64,000 nucleotides of DNA from a bacterium A37T11. GTDB lineage: Bacteria > Bacteroidota > Bacteroidia > Sphingobacteriales > Sphingobacteriaceae. Positions 4,590 through 35,475 of the stretch are shown piece by piece. Below the pieces are notes generated by a model. That model made no database searches. It saw only the letters and a program-made list of their open reading frames with translations, and was not told the origin of the DNA. Position numbers and translations under genes: made by a program. The first letter of the stretch is position 1. Every line of letters begins with the position of its first letter. Location: assembly GCA_900109895.1 (NCBI GenBank), contig FOBR01000011.1:62001-126000 (forward strand), given 5' to 3'.

Positions 4590-5965
4590 TCTTGGGTGCG
4601 TTGATTTTGTGGGATAGCGGTTTTTTGAACAATATATTCTGGAATGGGCATAGTGTAGCGACTGCTATTAGGAATTATGGTGTAATTCTCCCCACTGACG
4701 TTACGGTGAAGGGTGACCGCTCGTTGCTTTTCCTGATTTAACCTGCGCAGGTCACTCCAATACAAGCCACGGAACAATAGCTCCTTGCGGCGCTCCTTTA
4801 GCACCATATTTAATACATTATCTGTGTTTACCATGGTAAGAGGTGTAAACTGTTCTTTGACAAAACGATGGCTTAACAGGGTGTTTAGGTCGTTCAATGC
4901 TTTTTCATCGTTGCCGTTCCTTGCCAGGCATTCCGCCCGGATCAGATATAATTCATCACTGGCCAGTCCATTGAATAACCGAACACTGGCGGTGTAACTA
5001 CCTCGGAAAGAATGACCCCCATTAAAGAATAGGTTTAACCGGAGATCATGTACCTGATAGAGTGCCAGCAAATCGGTATCGATTGTATGTAAATTAGTAA
5101 TCAAATATGTAGGAAGGGTAAAGAAGGTACTGTATAATAATGTTTCTTCATTCAGGTCCGGAATTGGATTTCTGTCATTCACGTGCGGTAAAATATCTTC
5201 ATAATTCATTAATGCAGGATGTAATTGTAACGCAGAATCGGCATAAGCCCATGCATTTGAATAATCACACATGTTAAGGAAACAACGCGCCAGTAACGCA
5301 TAAGCGGCGGGTCTGGAGGCATCCGTAAGAAGTCTGGGTGTTAGCGTTAATAGGGGTAGTGCGGTTTTCAGATCCTGCACAATACGGTTATAGGTTTGCC
5401 CAACACTGGCCCTTTCGGTGAGTGGATGTGGATCTGAACTTAAACGAAGCGGAATGCCCAGCAGGTTTTGATGGGCGTTGGCCGGCTCGTAAGGTGCCGC
5501 AAAGACCTGTGCCAGATTGTATAGGGCTTTCGCCCGGAAAAAGAGTGCTCCCCCCTTTACATCGTCCCATTCAGCATCATTTGCTGCATTTCTCTCGACT
5601 TCTCGAAGGCCATCGAGAACCACGTTGGCATTAAATACTTGCTGGTAAGTGTCATCCCAATCGCTGATGTTAGTTACCGGATCAGGATACATAGTGGCTC
5701 TCCAGCAATAGAGATTGCGTTCCAAATCAATGCCGATGTTAAAAAGAGCATCCGTAACGGTAAATTCCTCTCCTGAAATTAAAGGCATGGAAGTATAACT
5801 CAAAGCCATTCCTGGCGAGCTGCTACTATTCAGGATACTCCGATAGTCTTGTAAGTTGGTGGGAATAACGGAATTTAAATCCCGTTTGGCCTCAAGCCAG
5901 TTCTTTTGGCACCCCATGAATACTGATATAATAATGATGCTGCTAATCTGTAGGATTCTTTTCAT
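4586..5965 (-). CDS. RagB/SusD-family outer-membrane lipoprotein (set 1)
   Basis: A 459-residue lipoprotein with lipobox VFMGC (Cys19), so it should be lipid-anchored at the cell surface. SusD features: N-terminal TPR-like helices (for example KGGALFFRAKALYNLAQ), the phrase SDELYLIRAECLARNGN, and the C-terminal ERRKELLFRGLYWSDLRRLN motif shared by the three SusD proteins of this window. SusD proteins form the lid on a SusC barrel and capture substrate. The gene follows its SusC by 19 nt and overlaps TlpA. Sugar specificity cannot be claimed: no glycoside hydrolase is nearby, so the substrate may be a peptide or other compound. Confidence 0.9.
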   Translation of the reverse strand: MKRILQISSIIIISVFMGCQKNWLEAKRDLNSVIPTNLQDYRSILNSSSSPGMALSYTSMPLISGEEFTVTDALFNIGIDLERNLYCWRATMYPDPVTNISDWDDTYQQVFNANVVLDGLREVERNAANDAEWDDVKGGALFFRAKALYNLAQVFAAPYEPANAHQNLLGIPLRLSSDPHPLTERASVGQTYNRIVQDLKTALPLLTLTPRLLTDASRPAAYALLARCFLNMCDYSNAWAYADSALQLHPALMNYEDILPHVNDRNPIPDLNEETLLYSTFFTLPTYLITNLHTIDTDLLALYQVHDLRLNLFFNGGHSFRGSYTASVRLFNGLASDELYLIRAECLARNGNDEKALNDLNTLLSHRFVKEQFTPLTMVNTDNVLNMVLKERRKELLFRGLYWSDLRRLNQEKQRAVTLHRNVSGENYTIIPNSSRYTMPIPEYIVQKTAIPQNQRTQE

Positions 5966-5984
5966 TATGATCTTGAATAAAGGA

Positions 5985-8900
5985 TTAAAAATTAGCCTGT
6001 AAACCCATTGCTATACTGCGTGATGTGGGCAGCGTCGTGTTACCTAGTGTGGCATTGCTATTATAGTCTGGGTCCAGGTGCTGTTTGTTAGCGCGCCACA
6101 GAATGCCCAGGTTATTGACATAAGCATAGACCCGCAAGGAACGGAGCAATAGTGCACGGACGATTGCCCCATTCAGGTCTAAACTGAGCTGGATATCCTG
6201 TAAGCGGATGTGATCGCCTTTTTCAACAAGGGCGGAAGAGTTTTGATAAAAATTGCCACGCGCCGCATTTTGAGGGTATATAACAGAAGGAACATTCGTG
6301 CGCGTTTCATCTCCGGAGCCTTGCCAGCGCTGACCGAATTCGGAGGTATAGGCCGACATATTGGGAATATAACTAATGGCACTTGCCTGACGCCTAAAAT
6401 AATAGCCGAACTTATAAAGAATGTTTGCCGAGAGGCCCCAGGGCCCAATGCGAAACGTATTCCGAAAACTTCCGGTATGGGCCGGTAGTGCACGGCCATG
6501 ATAAATAAGACTGTCCAGTGTTGCATGTTGTGAAATAGCGGCGTAATCAGTACTGACCTGCCCATTCAGATATCCTTGCGGATCTCCGGTGTCGGGATTA
6601 AGACCTGCCCAACGATAACTATACACCCCAAATAAAGGCCGGCCATTGGCAGGGTTGTTCTGTAAGGCAGTGCCAGATAGGCTGGCATCCTGGAAAAAAT
6701 AGGTGCTGCCTGGCTGTAACTGATAATCGATTACCTTATCGGCAGTATACCCCCAGATGACGTTGCTTTCCCAACTGAAGTTTCGGTAATTGATGTTTTT
6801 GGAGTTCAATTGTATGTCCCAGCCATGTCCTTTCATGCCCGAAACGTTACCCCGGAAGATATTGCGGCCTGTGGTGGCATCAAAAGGCTGGTTGCTGATT
6901 AGGTCTTTGCCTCGTTTATGGTAGTAATCGACGCTTCCGGATAGCCGATTTTGAAAGGCAGAAAAATCAAGACCAACGTTATGTATCCCTGTACGTTCGC
7001 CCTTCAATTCAGGGTTTGGTAAGTTGCCCAGCCGGGCTTCACGCAGGCCGTAGCTGTTAGTAACATAAGTAGCCGTGACATAAGCGCTGGCAGTTTCATC
7101 AAAATTGCCGTTATAACCGTACGACCAGCGCAGACTTAGTACCTGAAGCCATGACAGCCGATAAAAATTTTCCTTGTTTATGTCCCATTTCAATCCTGAG
7201 GACCACAACGGGATACTTCGCTGGTTGCTTTTTACCCCAAATAGGTTGGTTTGGTCAATGCGGGCACTTCCCGATACAGTATAGCGTGAACGGTAGGTAT
7301 AAGCACCGTTGGCAAAGTAGGAGCGAAAGCGATTTAAATTTCCTTGCATGCCTTGATTACGGGTGATAGTAGACCTGCCACTTACAGGATAACGCGCAAA
7401 CTGATCCGTAAAATTGACAGGAAGGGAAGTTCCAGTGGCAGGATCATATCCATAATAGCGGTTAGTATAAAACGTAGATCTTACCTCTCTAGCTTCAAAT
7501 CCCGCTAAAAGGCTAACCTGGTGTAGGTGGTCCAGCCAATCACCTGCATATTGTAGTTGAGCCCGGCCATTTTGCGATCTTAGGTTTCCATTGGTGAGAT
7601 CCAATATGCCGCCTTGGGGTACCGGATATTTGTTGCCAGTTCCACTCAGGTTTATGTATTGGTTGATCAGGTTACGGGTAAAATAAGCATCCTGACCCTG
7701 AAAATACTTTTGGGTTGTAGCCTGATGTTCATATTGGTAAGAAATGGAGGCCTGCAAGCCTTTAAACAAGGTGTAAACAGCGTTGACGCTAGCCCGGTAG
7801 TGTTGTAAAGCGGTACCGTTACTGCGATTTTCAGGTTCTTCCAGCGGAACAAACTGCCAGTTGAGCCGTCCATTCTGTTCAGCGGCGGCTGCAAAGGAAG
7901 CACGGTAATCGCGCACAATGGGAAGCGGATTGCCAGCATCGTCGGCAAGGCGTTCGTACGGATAGGCGTTTTGCAGAAAGTAAAGTGTATTGTCGCTGTT
8001 CTTTTGGCTGCTAGTTAGTTCCAAGGATGTGTTAACCTGTAATTTTTGAAAGAAACTAAACTGATTGCGGGCAGTCAGGTTGATGCGGTTATACGAATCG
8101 GACTTCACAGCTTGCTGGTTTCTGTCCATGTCGGCCGCGTAATAATAAGTATGTTGCTCACCGCCGCCCTGCATATTCAGCGCATATTGCTGGCTGATGG
8201 CCTTACGATAAAAGTAGCGGTCAATTTCTGAGCGGATGTCTTGTCCGCGTAATAAATCCAGCTTCTCTTTCTTTTGGGTTTCGGACAGTGCCGAATTGGC
8301 CATGATTTCCACGGCCGGACTAATGACTGGGAAGGTAGTGGTATTCGCCAGATCGCTTTTGTAATAGTCGTGGTCATAGAGGTATTGTTCTACCTCAATA
8401 AAATCAGCAGAAGAGATTTTTGGTTCATACCAGAGATCTGGTTTGTCTGCTACAGTAACATTGCTGTTAAACCCCACTTGTGTTCGCTGGTTTTGCTTTC
8501 CTTTTTTGGTCGTTATGACAATGACGCCGTTGCCGGCACGAATACCCCAGATGCTGGCCGCGGCCGCATCCCTCAAAACAGAAACCGAGGCCACATCATT
8601 CGGGTTTAGGTTGGATAGGTCGCCTTCATACGGGAAATTATCTACCACGATCAGCGGCTTGGCATTACCATAGATGGTGCTGATGCCACGGATACTAAGC
8701 TTTGGGGTACCTCCTGCGCGCTCATCAAATAGGAGGGAAGGGGTAATGCCTTTGAGGCGGCTAAGAACATCTGTGCTGGCGCTGCGGTTAAACAACGCGC
8801 TATCGATAAACACAAATGAACCCGTGGCCCGTTCCTTGGGGATTTGCTGATAGCCCGTAGAGACGGTGACTTCCTGTAATTGAATGGTGTCTTTTAAGGA

Positions 8901-10336: not shown

Positions 10337-10651
10337 TTAAATTTTTTGTTTTTTGGCTAAGGAAGCCCGGACTTTTTGGACGAAATCAATGGAGACCGTG
10401 GCTACATCTGCAGCTTGATCGTCTGATAAGCCAAGTTTAATAATAAGCTTTGTAACAAACTCAGTGTTCCTTTCTTCTTCGGTTTCAAGTGCACCTTCCA
10501 GCTTGCCTTGCTCCTTAAATATTTCTTTTACTGTTTCAACGATTCCCATGTTAAGTTCTCCTTTTGATGTTTTTGACAACTCAATGTCAAAGATACGATT
10601 TTCTTCCACTTTCAGCATGTTGGAAGGAGGTCTAATTGTTATCATAAACAA
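10337..10651 (-). pseudogene. Rpn-family C-terminal fragment (copy A)
   Basis: A 104-codon frame with the C-terminal part only of an Rpn (recombination-promoting nuclease, PD-(D/E)XK) protein: NRIFDIELSKTSKGELNMGI, then the KEQGKLEGALE hinge and a helical tail ending VQKVRASLAKKQKI. The catalytic N-terminal two thirds are absent. The first ~15 codons (MFMITIRPPSNMLKV) do not match copy B and look like junction sequence. In E. coli the C-terminal part of RpnA is also made alone and acts as an intragenic antitoxin, so a short product need not be inert. As it stands it is best viewed as a remnant that may still be expressed. Confidence 0.65.
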
Positions 10652-11871: not shown

Positions 11872-12354
11872 TTAAATTTTTTGTTTTTTGGCTAAATCTG
11901 CTTGTACTTTTATGACAAATTTTTCCGGAACACTTGCAAAATTGGTGATTTCAGCAATGGTGAATTTGTTAGCTTGTAGAAGCTTTGTAACAAACTCGGT
12001 TTTGTTTTTTTCTTCGGTTTCAAGTGCACCTTCCAGCTTGCCTTCAAGCCTACCTTCCAGCTTGCCTTCAAGCTTGCCTTGCTCCTTAAATATTTCTTTT
12101 ACTGTTTCAACGATTCCCATGTTAAGTTCTCCTTTTGATGTTTTTGACAACTCAATGTCAAAGATACGATTTTCTTCTTTATCCTGTACAAAAATAAATT
12201 GGGTTAAAAAGTAAGCAAAGCTCTCTATTTGCTCCAACGTGTATATTCCCGCCTTGCGTAACGCCTGTAAGATGAGTACCCGTGCCCGGTTAAGCTGTGA
12301 GTGTTTAGATGCATAATTGAGTCTGCCAATATCATCCTACTCTTGCTGCATCAT
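11872..12354 (-). pseudogene. Rpn-family C-terminal region with amber stop (copy B)
   Basis: The frame reads from two ATG codons at 12349-12354 (MMQQE), hits TAG at 12337-12339, then continues as DDIGRLNYASKHSQLNRARV to the end at 11872. The remaining open part (usable from a TTG at 12237) has 121 codons. It matches the Rpn C-terminal third, with an expanded hinge EGKLEGRLEGKLEGALE from tandem 12-nt units, then a tail FTIAEITNFASVPEKFVIKV that differs from copy A. The nuclease domain is missing. The amber codon replaces what is probably a Gln (CAG). Likely a decaying Rpn gene; a short C-terminal product is still possible. Confidence 0.65.
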
Positions 12355-29650: not shown

Positions 29651-30148
29651 GTTAATATTGGAAATTAATAAATTATCGAATAAATTTTGATCATCGAGGT
29701 AAATTAATAGTTTCTGACAGTTTGGGCCTGAAAATTATTTTCAGTCTAAGGAGGGGTATGTCAAATTGTGAAGAAAGAAACTTATAAATTGCATATTTTT
29801 AAACAAGGTCTTTTTTTAATATTTACTCAAAATTAACTTAGCTGGTCAAGCGAACGGCATCGGGATAATAGCGGAAGGAGACCCCGGTGAACCGCAGTAG
29901 AACCAAGGCTCCTGAAGTGGTTTTCCCGTCCGTGAGATGACTGGCTGAGTTGGATCAAATATTGCAGGTTCAAAGATAAGCTGATGGAAGCCTACGAATC
30001 CAATGAAGAGGCGCCGGTTAAAAAGTGGAAAGCAATAACAGCGACCGTAACCCACACTCCAGAATAGTTTGACAAGTTTTATTTGGTGTCACATTTGGAA
30101 TTTACCGAGTAGAGGCCTTTACCAGCTACTTATCGAAAAGCTAGATCT
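29651..30148. other. 498-nt gap with relic-like sequence
   Basis: The first part is AT-rich and contains a small palindrome (CTGAAAAT / ATTTTCAG, 29728-29744) that may end the set 3 transcript. From about 29840 to 30066 the base composition becomes GC-richer and a short plus-strand frame (about 29936-30066) reads DDWLSWIKYCRFKDKLMEAY and ends TVTHTPE. It has no start codon and was not recognised. It looks like the end of a lost gene. Confidence 0.45.
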
Positions 30149-30916: not shown

Positions 30917-30957
30917 TGATGGATGATGAATTTTGGAAGATTAATGAGCAAAAAAAA

Positions 30958-30980
30958 CCACCCGCTAAATCAACGGATGG
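30958..30980. terminator. Stem-loop repeat, copy 3
   Basis: It is identical to the 10284-10306 unit (CCACCCG ... CGGATGG) and precedes the 3' end of the intact Rpn gene on the minus strand, so it can serve as that gene's terminator: an A run upstream on the plus strand gives a U tract for the minus-strand transcript. Confidence 0.6.
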
Positions 30981-31031
30981 CTTTGTGTTATATACGGTAT
31001 ACTTATAATAATTGCTGTGCTGCTTTGTTAA

Positions 31032-31988
31032 TTATAGTTTTTCAACAATATCAAGTGGTAAGCTTGTAAAATCAGAAATCTGAGCCAAGGATAAGCCAGC
31101 CTTTTTCATCTTACGTGCAGATTCCAACTTATCTGCATAAGCATTCTGTTCAGCTTTTGCCTGAAACGTGGCTATTTCCTTTTCAGCGATTTCTCGTTCT
31201 AACCGGCGGCCTTTTTCAAGGCCTTTTTCCAGCCCTCTTTTCTCTGCATAGCTTAAAGTAGCATTATAGTCACGTAATGAGTTGATGCTTGATTGGTATG
31301 CCATCTGTTCCTCCTTTGTTAATTTACTATATTCGGCCAGTCCAAATGCTTCCTGAAAAATGGGCTTTTCGTAGCCGGCTGGTGGTTCTGTCATATTTTC
31401 TAAGTTAACCAGCAAATTTAGCCATTTTTCTAAATCAGAATCAAGAGGCCCTTTGTTTACAAACTTAGGCAATTCTATGTATTTAAACCAAATTTTATCA
31501 AAAAAAGGTTCTTTAAGCAAGTTGTGATGAAGGGTTACATCATGCAGATAAAGATTGGGGTGCTTCGGGTAGAGGATGAAATTCATAAAAGAGATGATAT
31601 AAAACTCCTTCATTTCATAGGTATCACCAGCTTCACCTTTGGGCACAGAGCCTGAGATGACTTCGGAAGCATACAGAATAGTCCGGTCTTTATAAAACTC
31701 CTGTGCTGCCAGTTGCATTTCAACGATAAACGTTTCATCATTATCACCAACGCAGTTGATGTCAACTACAGATTTCCGGGATTCTTCGTTTTTGGGGATA
31801 ATTTCCGTAGGTCTAAGACTGACACTTTTGATAACCTTAACGCCTTTAAATATGGAATTCAATAAGTCTAGTAAGATACCTAGATGCTGTGGATTTGAAA
31901 AAAGACGTTTAAAACCGTAATCAGATTTGAGGTTTATAAATACCTTAGCGCCTTGATCAATCGATGGAATTGATGTACTGTATGACAT
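31032..31988 (-). CDS. Rpn-family PD-(D/E)XK nuclease / putative transposase
   Basis: A 318-residue protein of the Rpn/PDDEXK_2 family. The N-terminal nuclease domain has KSDYGFKRLFSNP, the acidic residue in SVVDINCV (Asp76) and the FIVEMQ motif (Glu90, Gln92). A middle helical domain follows (SKLTKEEQMAYQSSINSLRD), then a charged coiled coil (GLEKGLEKGRRLEREIAEKE) and a C-terminal tail (GLSLAQISDFTSLPLDIVEKL). Rpn proteins cleave DNA and have been linked to recombination and to phage defence. This is the only apparently complete Rpn gene in the window. The same 3' end is duplicated at 32526-33047. Confidence 0.88.
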   Translation of the reverse strand: MSYSTSIPSIDQGAKVFINLKSDYGFKRLFSNPQHLGILLDLLNSIFKGVKVIKSVSLRPTEIIPKNEESRKSVVDINCVGDNDETFIVEMQLAAQEFYKDRTILYASEVISGSVPKGEAGDTYEMKEFYIISFMNFILYPKHPNLYLHDVTLHHNLLKEPFFDKIWFKYIELPKFVNKGPLDSDLEKWLNLLVNLENMTEPPAGYEKPIFQEAFGLAEYSKLTKEEQMAYQSSINSLRDYNATLSYAEKRGLEKGLEKGRRLEREIAEKEIATFQAKAEQNAYADKLESARKMKKAGLSLAQISDFTSLPLDIVEKL

Positions 31989-32368
31989 ATAAAAAATTGT
32001 TCAATGTTTGATTAATGTGATTCCAAGGCAAATATATTTATTGCCAGCTGGGAATTTTCTGTTCATTTTAATCATTTTAATGCTGTCAATCCCTGGGATT
32101 TCAGATAGGGGAAGCCGTTGTTTATTCCGCATCGCTGCGAAATGTGCGTTTAAAAATGTGTTGGGGAGTTCCTACGTTCCACTGGCACCGCGATATGTAT
32201 TATTACGCTGTTATTTTTGTTTCGTTGTTTTGGTTTTTGTTATTCGTTTATGATGGTGCGAAGATACACATTGTCATTAGGCTGTATTGCCTGACAAGCA
32301 AGTATGACTAGTGCTGCCGGGCTTCCCGTTTCCAGTAACTCTTCTTCTGTGTGATCACTATCAAATAT

Positions 32369-32442
32369 TCTGTCCGGGCTGGGGAGTGGCGATTAGGGTC
32401 TGGAGCGAAGTGAAGACCCGGGCCACGACCAGCCCGGACAGA
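32369..32442. repeat. 74-nt palindromic element, copy 1
   Basis: The element begins TCTGTCCGGGCTGG and ends with its exact reverse complement CCAGCCCGGACAGA. The 46-nt centre contains GGGTCT and AGACCC as a second, inner stem. The ~30 nt to its left (CTTCTTCTGTGTGATCACTA) are also shared with copy 2. Confidence 0.8.
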
Positions 32443-32451
32443 AACAAAAAA

Positions 32452-32474
32452 CCACCCGCTAAATCAACGGATGG
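32452..32474. terminator. Stem-loop repeat, copy 4
   Basis: It is the same unit as at 10284 and 30958, 52 nt from the stop codon of the truncated Rpn copy. Confidence 0.55.
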
Positions 32475-32525
32475 CTTTGTGTTATATACGGTATACTTAT
32501 AATAATTGCTGTGCTGCTTTGTTAA

Positions 32526-33047
32526 TTATAGTTTTTCAACAATATCAAGTGGTAAGCTTGTAAAATCAGAAATCTGAGCCAAGGATAAGCCGGCCTTTTT
32601 CATCTTACGGGCAGATTCCAATTTATCTGAATAAATTTTTTGTATCTCAGCTTCAGCTTTCTGTATCTCTGCTTCAGCTTTCTGTTTTTCGGCTATAGCT
32701 TGTTCAGCTTTTGCCTGAAACGTGGCTATTTCCTTTTCAGCGATTTCTCGTTCTAACCGGCGGCCTTTTTCAAGGCCTTTTTCCAGCCCTCTTTTCTCTG
32801 CATAGCTTAAAGTAGCATTATAGTCACGTAATGAGTTGATGCTTGATTGGTATGCCATCTGTTCCTCCTTTGTTAATTTACTATATTCGGCCAGTCCAAA
32901 TGCTTCCTGAAAAATGGGCTTTTCGTAGCCGGCTGGTGGTTCTGTCATATTTTCTAAGTTAACCAGCTAATTTAGCCATTTTTCTAAATCAAAATCAAGA
33001 GGCCCTTTGTTTACAAACTTAGGCAATTCAATGTATTTAAACCAAAT
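32526..33047 (-). pseudogene. Truncated duplicate of the Rpn gene
   Basis: This is a second copy of the last ~170 codons of the Rpn gene at 31032-31988, nearly identical but with an insertion in the coiled coil that adds repeats of the type QKAEAEI. A stop codon lies just upstream of the in-frame ATG at 32948, and homology ends at about 33047, where a palindromic element begins. The nuclease domain is absent. An open frame of 140 codons (32526-32948) could still give a C-terminal protein comparable to intragenic Rpn antitoxins known in E. coli. Confidence 0.75.
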
Positions 33048-33076
33048 TCTTCTTCTGTATGATTACCATCAAATAT

Positions 33077-33150
33077 TCTGTCCGGGCTGGGGAGTGGCGA
33101 TTAGGGTCTGGAGCGAAGTGAAGACCTGGGCCAAGACCAGCCCGGACAGA
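33077..33150. repeat. 74-nt palindromic element, copy 2
   Basis: It is nearly identical to 32369-32442, with the same 14-nt inverted ends and the same orientation. The two copies bracket the truncated Rpn duplicate. This copy ends 9 nt from the stop codon of the histidine kinase. Confidence 0.8.
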
Positions 33151-33159
33151 ACCCTATGA

Positions 33160-35475
33160 TCACACCATCTTCTCTTCCTTGATCTTTAATAAGATCCGAA
33201 GCATTTCTTCAGGAACAAACGGTTTGTTCAGGATGGTGTGAACGCCCGTTTTGGCTAGTTTGATGCGTACATCACTCATAATGTCGGCTGTAAAGATGAT
33301 GATTTCAGTACCAGGGTATCGTTCGTTCAGAATGGCTGATAGCTGGTAGCCATCCATATCTGGCATGTGTAGGTCCACAAAGGCGGCGTGGTAAGTGTTC
33401 AATTTCAAGAGTTTTAAGGCGTCTGCTCCTCCCACGGCACAATGAGGGATAATGCCAAAATATTCCATTTGTTCGCGGGTAACCATCAGATTAACGTGGT
33501 TATCTTCAACCAATAAAATATTCAGGCCTCCCAATTTTTGCTCATAAGCTGATATTTCTGCGGATATGGCGGGTAGGGCAGAAGGTGCGTCCGTATCAAG
33601 TACCTCAAAGGATAGCTCAAAATAAAATTCAGAACCTTTACCTGGTTTGCTATCCAGGTAAATCTGGCTGTGATGCAACTCTATAAGCCTCCTGGTAATA
33701 GCTAGTCCCAGTCCAGTGCCCGAATGGGCTCGTTGAATGTCTTGTTGTGCCTGGCGGAAGTCTTCAAAGATGGCTTGCTGCAGTTCCTGCGGGATACCAA
33801 CGCCGGTATCCTTGACAGAAAAATGCAGGCTTACGTTTTGTTCCTTTCGGGCTACCACCTGAATTGACAGCGTGACCGTACCCCGATCGGTATATTTGAC
33901 CGCGTTGCTGACCAGATTGTTTAATATCTGACTTAATCGGGTTGGATCACCAATGAGTCTGGTAGGTATTTCCTGGTCCAACAGACTCACTAACCGGATA
34001 CCTTTGACCTCGGCCAGGGAGGAAAATTGGTTGCGTATATTTCGTATAAGTCCGGGTAGATCAATTTCGGCCTGGATAAGTTCCAGCTTGCTGTTTTCCA
34101 TCTTGCTAAGGTCGAGGATGTCATTAATGAGCCTAAGTAAATGGTCAGCAGAGAATAGGAGGTTATTGACAATCTCTTTTTGCGCTGGGGTATGCTTTAA
34201 TTTAAGCAGGTTGGTAATGCCAATAATGCCATTGAGGGGTGTACGGATTTCATGGCTCATGACCGACAGGAAATCTGCCTTGGCTTTGGTAGCCTGTTCA
34301 GCCTCGTTCTTGGCGTTAAGTAGTCTCATGGCGTCTTCCTTTTCGCGGGTTATGTTCATGACCGCTCCGCGTAAAGCCACCACCTTTTCTGCCTTTATAA
34401 TAGGAACGCCAAATACCCGAATCCATTTGTTGCGCCCGCTAGGTACGTTGATGAGCGCTTCAAACACATAATTAACCTGCTCTTCGATGCCTTTACGGAT
34501 GCGTTCGCGGATGATAAGCTGATCCTGCGGCTGAAAAAAGGCGAGGTATTTATCCAGGTCTGATTTATCAAAATCTTCCGATACTTCATAAATGGCATAT
34601 ACCTGTTTAGTCCAAAAGGTTTCACCGGTTTCCAGGTTTAGTTCCCAGCCTCCGGTGTCACTGAGCTGTTGGCTGAAATCAAGCAGTTGATTATTCCGTT
34701 CCAACACTTCCTGGATGTTGGTTAGTTCCTGAAGGTACTTAACTCGGTCTGTAATTTCTTGGATGATCAGGGCTATTCGCTGGCCAGACAACTCCCCCTT
34801 CAGTTCTACAGGTACTGCCTTGGCCCGGTACCACTTATCAACGGCAGGATCTATGTGCGGGTATTCAATGGAAGTTTCCTTTCCGGTACGAAAAGCCTCC
34901 TGTATCGGGCGGGAATATAATGGGGCAAGGTCGCCAAATACTTCTTGTACTGTTTTTCCTATAAATTGTTCCCTGGGCATAAAGAGTGCCGATTCATCTT
35001 TTACCCATACCTGACGGAAAATCAAGTGGCCATCCAGCTCAAAGATGATGTCTTCAATCACCGAGATCATGGAATGGAGGTATGAACTCAGCTCTTTTTG
35101 CTCCGTGATGTCTTGTATAAACCCGATGAAATAATATTCGGAACCGTCTTGGGAGTATATAGCCCGCGCATCTGAGCGGAAATAACGAATGCCTTTCTCT
35201 GGGTGTGATATGTGATACTGGAACGTAAAGGTTTCCAATCGTCTCTGAATGGCTTCGTTGATGATGTCCAAAACGGCTTCACGGTCTTCAGGTACGATGA
35301 TACTTAGCCATTCCCGGCCGAGTGATTGCTGCTGGGGTAATCCGGTTATCCGCTCCCATTCATTGTTAAAAAAATAAAAGTTGCCATGCATGTCTGCCTG
35401 AAAAGCTCCAAATGGGGCTTGTTGCAGTACATTTTGTACATCTTTATCTTGTAGCCTGGTATTTTTTCCTTCCAT
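33160..35475 (-). CDS. PAS-domain hybrid sensor histidine kinase
   Basis: A 771-residue soluble hybrid kinase without membrane segments. Three PAS/PAC units occupy about 12-128, 132-250 and 262-385. HisKA has SVMSHEIRTPLNG with His408. HATPase_c about 505-625 has the N box LVSNAVKYTD and G boxes DTGVGIP and GTGLGLA. A C-terminal receiver (about 650-768) has LLVEDN and the phosphoacceptor Asp701 in FVDLHMPDMDG. It likely senses a cytoplasmic signal (redox, ligand or light) and passes phosphate to its own receiver and then to a phosphotransfer protein not encoded nearby. It forms a single-gene unit. Confidence 0.93.
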   Translation of the reverse strand: MEGKNTRLQDKDVQNVLQQAPFGAFQADMHGNFYFFNNEWERITGLPQQQSLGREWLSIIVPEDREAVLDIINEAIQRRLETFTFQYHISHPEKGIRYFRSDARAIYSQDGSEYYFIGFIQDITEQKELSSYLHSMISVIEDIIFELDGHLIFRQVWVKDESALFMPREQFIGKTVQEVFGDLAPLYSRPIQEAFRTGKETSIEYPHIDPAVDKWYRAKAVPVELKGELSGQRIALIIQEITDRVKYLQELTNIQEVLERNNQLLDFSQQLSDTGGWELNLETGETFWTKQVYAIYEVSEDFDKSDLDKYLAFFQPQDQLIIRERIRKGIEEQVNYVFEALINVPSGRNKWIRVFGVPIIKAEKVVALRGAVMNITREKEDAMRLLNAKNEAEQATKAKADFLSVMSHEIRTPLNGIIGITNLLKLKHTPAQKEIVNNLLFSADHLLRLINDILDLSKMENSKLELIQAEIDLPGLIRNIRNQFSSLAEVKGIRLVSLLDQEIPTRLIGDPTRLSQILNNLVSNAVKYTDRGTVTLSIQVVARKEQNVSLHFSVKDTGVGIPQELQQAIFEDFRQAQQDIQRAHSGTGLGLAITRRLIELHHSQIYLDSKPGKGSEFYFELSFEVLDTDAPSALPAISAEISAYEQKLGGLNILLVEDNHVNLMVTREQMEYFGIIPHCAVGGADALKLLKLNTYHAAFVDLHMPDMDGYQLSAILNERYPGTEIIIFTADIMSDVRIKLAKTGVHTILNKPFVPEEMLRILLKIKEEKMV

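Follow-up and report, generated by a model that had tools for sequence, protein, structure and literature searches.

Why do two copies of the same 74-nt palindrome stand on either side of a truncated Rpn gene, and how did this arrangement come about? Rpn genes are widespread and frequently transferred, and they have been reported as anti-phage toxin-antitoxin systems. The locus considered here lies in a stretch of 64,000 nucleotides (the window) from a bacterium whose own genome comprises 5.09 Mb in 60 contigs and is 97.5% complete. The contigs of this genome are designated by C-numbers; C27 is the contig of the window, and window positions 29825-29951 correspond to C27:91825-91951. The palindrome, called element A, represents a small palindromic family without a known mobiliser, and in this locus it was duplicated together with Rpn. 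We propose, with a probability of roughly 0.55, that element A is a REP/MITE-like palindrome which acts as a favoured edge for rearrangement of the Rpn locus. The direct repeats that bracket Rpn-type genes, when measured against control genes, offer a testable entry to the question of how Rpn genes move and form arrays.

The palindrome pair and the truncated Rpn copy

The features of the locus are listed in Table 1. The first-pass annotation had described two direct 74-nt palindromes with exact inverted ends of 14 nt, an inner stem and about 30 nt of common left flank. Both palindromes are located exactly where it had placed them, and the inverted ends are even one base longer on each side, giving perfect arms of 15 nt (TTCTGTCCGGGCTGG and CCAGCCCGGACAGAA) separated by 46 nt. 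With these arms copies 1 and 2 span 32368-32443 and 33076-33151, respectively (76 nt). The inner stem was also found: on folding, the 46-nt interior forms two further short stems. The common left flank, about 31 nt long, belongs to a 107-nt direct repeat, which covers this flank and the palindrome and stops at the right edge of the latter; the two repeat copies are 94% identical and differ at 6 of 107 positions. The 14-mer end occurs exactly four times in the window, compared with an average of 0.23 in shuffled sequences, and allowing up to two mismatches gives no additional match in the window. Folding of element A as DNA gives z-values of -7.5 and -7.2, one for each strand. Terminator consensus matching did not score the element as terminator-like in the window, and a search of positions 31000-34000 against Rfam gave no match at the gathering threshold.

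Table 1. Positions of the palindromes, repeats and genes of the Rpn locus in the window
Feature	Position	Strand	Remark
Family B palindrome copy	29825..29951	-	1081 nt from the full Rpn gene; the same family adjoins other Rpn-type genes of the genome
Duplicated source segment (Rpn terminator and 3' part)	30952..31494		
Terminator-like hairpin behind the full Rpn gene	30954..30984	-	At the edge of the duplicated segment; consensus match only
Full-length Rpn gene, 318 aa	31032..31988	-	PF12784, E = 3.5e-52; TIGR01784, 81.8 bits (cut-off 52.1)
107-nt direct repeat, copy 1	32337..32443	+	31-nt left flank and element
Element A, copy 1	32369..32442	+	Identical over 76 nt to the unlinked C17:234422-234497
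Duplicated Rpn segment	32446..33048		Starts about 3 nt to the right of element A, copy 1
Terminator-like hairpin behind the truncated Rpn copy	32448..32478	-	Consensus match only
Truncated Rpn copy (C-terminal part only), ORF of 140 aa	32526..32948	-	84% identity with residues 199-318 of the full-length Rpn
107-nt direct repeat, copy 2	33045..33151	+	
Element A, copy 2	33077..33150	+	9 nt beyond the histidine-kinase stop codon
Hybrid histidine kinase (PAS, HisKA, HATPase_c, Response_reg)	33160..35475	-	Stop codon faces element copy 2

The pair was said to border a truncated Rpn copy, and a 5'-truncated Rpn duplicate is indeed located between the two palindromes. The full-length gene matches the PD-(D/E)XK nuclease family above the curated cut-off (TIGR01784 / PF12784), while the truncated copy reaches 20.8 bits with TIGR01784, below the cut-off, and its ORF has no match in Pfam. 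This copy carries a 20-residue expansion of AEAEIQK-like repeats. It resembles the RpnS proteins known from print, including their variable C-terminal helix, and by this analogy it may be a stand-alone antitoxin. The segments 30952-31494 and 32446-33048 are identical in 535 of 543 ungapped columns (98.5%), with 60 further gap columns. The duplicated block begins at the T tract of the Rpn terminator-like hairpin, and its other end is the right base of element copy 1. Copy 2 lies directly behind the stop codon of the histidine-kinase gene and is probably the ancestral site. In a PADLOC search no match was obtained for two Rpn proteins or for a protein of AAA/PDDEXK_9 type, and weak matches to PDC-M43B were obtained for the histidine kinase. 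Two further Rpn-like C-terminal remnants with similar 3' ends are found on the minus strand of the window at 10337-10651 and 11872-12237.

Copies of element A in the genome and elsewhere

The own genome contains seven full and five partial copies of element A. The full copies comprise the two in the window, another two on C20, one each on C17 and C7, and one on C36 that has diverged; the partial copies are compact hairpins of about 32-34 nt on C47, C24 and C11 and right halves on C31 and C12. The objection raised beforehand, that only the two window copies might exist and that they arose with the flanking duplication, thus applies in one half: more copies exist, yet the window pair is best regarded as a duplication product. 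The pair does not represent two insertions; the local duplication of Rpn accounts best for copy 1. Window copy 1 and the C17 copy are identical over 76 nt and have unrelated flanks, which indicates that the palindrome itself moved or was copied between loci.

Seven of the twelve copies follow a facing stop codon at a distance of 9-28 nt (the ORF on C36 being doubtful). In the diverged C36 copy the arms have changed yet still pair. Over seven sequences, 97.3% of arm cells are paired and four pairs are altered on both sides, compared with a shuffle mean of 2.0; 22 of 500 shuffles reach four such double-sided changes. For a set of seven sequences this is suggestive of stem conservation in the diverged copy. 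The kept pairing could be produced by template switching on DNA that corrects the arms, as well as by selection on RNA.

Outside the own genome, the covariance model R1 of element A gave no match in 149 other genomes under the stricter filters (150 were searched and the own genome was the only match), and the exact core pattern was found neither in the genome collection of 84,980 species nor in viral contigs; diverged relatives may escape both searches. The arm pattern was likewise absent from viral contigs, the phage collection held no match for element A, and plasmids held none for family B, described below. A 45-nt match to element A in a Paracoccus plasmid was judged to be due to chance, being situated within a coding sequence; in that plasmid R1 gave only a weak match at a different position.

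Comparison with REP, MITE and attC elements

It is important to compare element A with the known classes of small palindromic elements. As a description, the term REP/MITE-like proved appropriate: the copies are dispersed, mostly intergenic and palindromic. The REP survey PMC3733652 describes, in the part considered here, REPs with GTAG or CGTC tags together with RAYTs (REPtrons). Element A shares with REPs the occurrence in multiple dispersed extragenic palindromic copies, often near gene ends. It differs in its length of 74 nt (20-40 nt for REPs), in its few copies and in the absence of a GTAG or CGTC tag from both strands of the 76-nt element. The suggested link to RAYT genes failed, as a search for Y1_Tnp (PF01797) gave no match in the own genome, and a control search was positive in 5 of 14 genomes. 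With neither a Y1_Tnp gene nor a tag, a RAYT-driven REP was rejected.

The likeness to MITEs consists in the small size, the terminal inverted repeats (the perfect 15-nt arms), the lack of coding sequence and the dispersal. In contrast to MITEs, no longer element with the ends of A was found. Inspection of the flanks of solo copies by eye revealed no target-site duplication. With up to two mismatches the 14-nt end has 40 matches in the own genome (10 for the reversed pattern as control), 14 of which fall in element copies. Among the remaining 26, no two face one another within 10 kb, hence no autonomous element with the same ends was found, and none of the 16 that were folded gives an A-like hairpin.

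In integrons the core pair of an attC site is RYYYAAC / GTTRRRY. The genes studied here are also separated by directly repeated imperfect palindromes, as cassettes are by attC sites. However, element A lacks the attC core, and a direction fixed relative to the gene is kept by family B/D only.

Rpn-type genes and bracketing repeats

A list of 21 Rpn-type genes of the own genome was fixed by hand. The contig-end pieces C11:153408, C35:1, C45:1, C36:234 and C17:297267 and the remnant C28:59722 were left off. In the own assembly, contig ends of C11, C17, C35 and C45 fall within Rpn genes, which repeated genes would lead one to expect. The cut-off of PF12784 or TIGR01784 is passed by only 8 of the 21, and the remaining 13 are called Rpn-like. 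Among these, the C34 protein matches TIGR01784 over its length with 30.8 of the 52.1 bits, below the cut-off, while C12:159532, C15 and C8 have no NCBIfam Rpn match. It is C34 that connects the group of C12:159532, C15 and C34 with Rpn, and in profile comparison C8/C52 match the profile of that group with 97% probability. When the Rpn-like groups were compared directly with core Rpn, the C-terminus alone was aligned, with probabilities of 6.6% and 28.8%; these groups are therefore only putative homologues of Rpn. In the genome collection, Rpn relatives were confirmed in 1 of 29 stretches (a Planctomycetaceae MAG), and the set of relatives was taken instead from a genome search that yielded 33 with a PF12784 match.

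A gene was counted as bracketed if a direct repeat of at least 40 nt and at least 75% identity had one copy within 1.5 kb on each side. These thresholds were set after inspection of the repeats at Rpn loci, and the identical test was run on the controls, which for the own genome consisted of 165 genes, 200-450 aa long, from 20 further regions of 20 kb each. By this test 12 of the 21 Rpn-type genes are bracketed, compared with 1 of 165 control genes. After removal of repeats that consist of Rpn sequence or terminator (C27:93032, C27:72337, C12:157707, C12:158140 and C17:296846), a strict count of 7/21 against 1/165 is obtained (Fisher p 6e-7, a value that overstates independence, some of the 21 genes being tandem paralogues or small remnants). 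For C11, which is in the strict count, one among several pieces of the repeat is Rpn-coding too. The eight genes above the cut-off account for seven bracketed genes (three strict) and the 13 Rpn-like genes for five (four strict).

In the relatives, 9 of 26 Rpn-type genes are bracketed, some of them by Rpn-derived repeats (L233, probably L230), compared with 3 of 160 control genes; these three share a single region. The 20 regions come from 10 of the 33 PF12784-positive relatives, picked for several Rpn genes, and the controls from 9 of these 10. Palindromes detected ab initio (arm of at least 14) show the same tendency: for genes with at least 300 nt of intergenic flank, own genome and relatives taken together, the counts are 17/41 for Rpn-type and 12/106 for control genes. 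Without intergenic matching they are 8/21 against 10/163 in the own genome and 10/26 against 12/158 in the relatives. No match to the four repeat families occurs in the 400 kb of control DNA from the own genome. Rpn-type genes of the sampled genomes are bracketed by repeats more often than control genes, within the limits of gene choice and thresholds given above. This enrichment hints at how clusters of Rpn-type genes get rearranged.

Repeat families and Rpn-type gene arrays

A link of element A to Rpn had been suggested, and as a matter of position it is supported; that the element might also be the target or product of Rpn-driven mobility stands as a hypothesis. A second full pair, within a 108-nt repeat of 96% identity, brackets a different Rpn gene on C20 (160836-161792), which is above the TIGR01784 cut-off. 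On C17 the distance between the copy and the ORF of a 5'-truncated Rpn-like gene is about 110 nt; the stop-free frame there has 182 codons, which suffices for it to reach the element. An Rpn-type gene is found within 130 nt at only three of the ten A loci (window, C20 and C17); the distance is 2.3 kb at C31 and about 3.4 kb at C36, and at C7, C47, C24 and C11:18482 no Rpn link was seen, where the labels used for these distances included TonB/SusC proteins by way of one fused ORF (C36:489-3023). This ORF (= L080:489-3023) joins an Rpn-like start to TonB receptor sequence and may be a real fusion or a chance frame. The right half of A at C12:302792 lies 65 nt upstream of an AAA-ATPase/PDDEXK_9 gene, a different nuclease-type gene.

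Other Rpn loci carry repeats of different sequence, families B, C and D. Family B is 81 nt long, or about 140 nt with a nested insertion, and D is the inner part of B on the other strand. These families were discovered in the flanks of Rpn genes, so that the count of 14/21 genes with a palindrome within 500 nt is an ascertained one. In the stretches examined there are 24 B/D clusters, 11 of them farther than 500 nt from an Rpn-type gene and 13 within that distance (on C8, C11, C12, C13, C17-end, C28, C35 and C57). In all 13 near cases the direction of the repeat is that of the gene, although they represent at most about six independent loci, C12 and C17-end being alike, as are C11 and C35. For element A two cases run with the gene and three against it (with: C20; against: C27 and C17), and for family C none with and two against (C15). 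On C13 an AAA-ATPase/PDDEXK_9 gene is located between D and B copies and runs against them. The AAA-ATPase_like/PDDEXK_9 genes L193:4027-5586 and L100:2181-3728 also adjoin palindromic repeats.

The composition of the arrays is instructive. In those on C11, C12, C17-end and in relative L247, neighbouring proteins belong to different groups and give no blastp match at E 1e-3, and in L239 their likeness is limited to the last 60 residues. The small copies of the window and of L242 are true partial duplicates. Identity between the blocks that flank a gene amounts to 88-98% in C11, 89% in C12 and 94.5% in L239. Tandem duplication alone is insufficient to explain these Rpn-type arrays. The shared block of C11 is in part the start of the second Rpn gene (C11:153447-153520 is like 151499-151571), so that duplication followed by replacement is possible there. 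The C8 gene has a paralogue on C52 (79% identical); the similarity of the two loci is confined to the gene, and the palindromes are not common to both. In relative G030 (L242:4094-4665 and 5955-6430), the 3' end of a putative glmS-like gene (317 nt, 93%) recurs with its hairpins beyond Rpn and is followed by a truncated Rpn.

Proposed origin of the locus

The locus could have arisen as follows. Element A would be a small non-coding REP/MITE-like palindrome, dispersed in the lineage and often placed just behind stop codons. One copy would have stood behind the histidine-kinase gene, with the Rpn gene adjoining; the position is observed and the order of events is what we infer. A local tandem duplication would have copied the Rpn terminator, the Rpn gene and the element as one block, with the terminator T tract as breakpoint at one side and the palindrome base at the other. 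Loss of the 5' part of the outer Rpn copy would then have produced the RpnS-like C-terminal ORF that stands between the two A copies. More generally, Rpn-type genes may be inserted, duplicated and truncated preferentially at palindromes, probably because replication stalls at hairpins or cruciforms or because these are cleaved, either by Rpn or by a structure-sensitive nuclease of another kind. We infer that Rpn could be the agent of rearrangement. It should be noted that the 107-nt repeat differs at 6/107 positions and the Rpn segment at 8/543, an inequality that one common duplication does not predict.

Palindromes and Rpn-type genes might instead gather, without any connection between them, in permissive non-essential intergenic space, where Rpn duplications would carry nearby palindromes along. 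This is doubtful, though it has a number of observations in its favour: intergenic flanks are longer at Rpn-type genes (median 381 nt in the own genome and 535 nt in relatives, 125 and 235 nt for the controls), nearly half of the B/D loci (11/24) are far from any Rpn-type gene, and the C8 and C52 palindromes are not part of an Rpn unit. However, the palindrome excess survives matching for intergenic length, control genes are seldom bracketed (1/165 and 3/160), and the B/D copies within 500 nt follow the gene direction without exception. The agreement in direction slightly lowers this explanation and slightly raises one in which the palindromes are recombination sites, palindrome and Rpn-type gene forming a unit that is gained, lost or swapped. 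The latter would also suit the different groups to which neighbours split by near-identical blocks belong and the C13 gene lying between D and B copies. On the other hand, families A and C keep no direction, the C13 gene opposes its B/D copies, element A has no attC core, the C8/C52 homology ends at the gene, and the C11 block, with the start of the second Rpn in it, allows duplication plus replacement. We consider such exchangeable units quite unlikely. It appears similarly improbable, to a high degree, that the palindromes are working sites of Rpn-type nucleases, the cut falling at or beside the hairpin and repair inserting, duplicating, truncating or swapping Rpn-type genes, so as to give mixed-group arrays with the same palindrome and direction.

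In homology-facilitated illegitimate recombination, incoming DNA joins by homology at one side only. Import of repeat and Rpn by this route would leave diverged direct repeats around Rpn, and the longest bracketing repeats are in fact 83-96% identical in the seven strict own cases and 77-98% in the relatives, as for alleles of different strains; the duplication of the glmS 3' end in G030 fits as well. The window Rpn copies, 98.5% identical outside gaps, point rather to a local source, and no donor was found, making import unlikely. The element might also act at the RNA level, as a 3'-end hairpin that stabilises or blocks mRNA, as proposed for REPs, its position being selected. This would be compatible with the other readings and agrees with the location of copies behind facing stop codons and with the stem kept in the diverged copy. 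However, A is not called terminator-like in the window, the Rfam search gave no match, both strands fold almost equally well, and the link to Rpn is left unexplained; we regard such a role as improbable.

The preferred reading, a palindrome serving as favoured edge of rearrangement, may be set against what is published on Rpn. In the part of Zhong et al. 2023 (PMC10327210) considered here, no identifiable terminal inverted repeats or target-site duplications are reported at rpn genes, arrays are said to arise by tandem duplication, and small C-terminal homologues (RpnS) act as antitoxins, with a C-terminal helix that varies in repeat number. These authors doubt that Rpn proteins are transposases and suggest that Rpn itself may start recombination; according to the portion considered of a 2017 study (PMC5350276), Rpn proteins promote RecA-independent recombination. 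The loci described here share with those of PMC10327210, as far as that portion goes, arrays with small C-terminal homologues and the variation in helix repeat number. They differ from them in the long, often palindromic direct repeats that bracket many Rpn-type genes, and in the mixing of genes of different groups in several arrays. No link between palindromes and Rpn was found in the open-licence papers searched. The questions opened by the locus are where the breakpoints fall, whether Rpn cuts the palindromes and how stand-alone RpnS-like copies originate.

A similar 3' end with its terminator is common to different Rpn-type groups (C27:92950-93005, C17:233838-233892 and C12:159474-159529). 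This similarity in sequence suggests that the groups may have exchanged their 3' ends.
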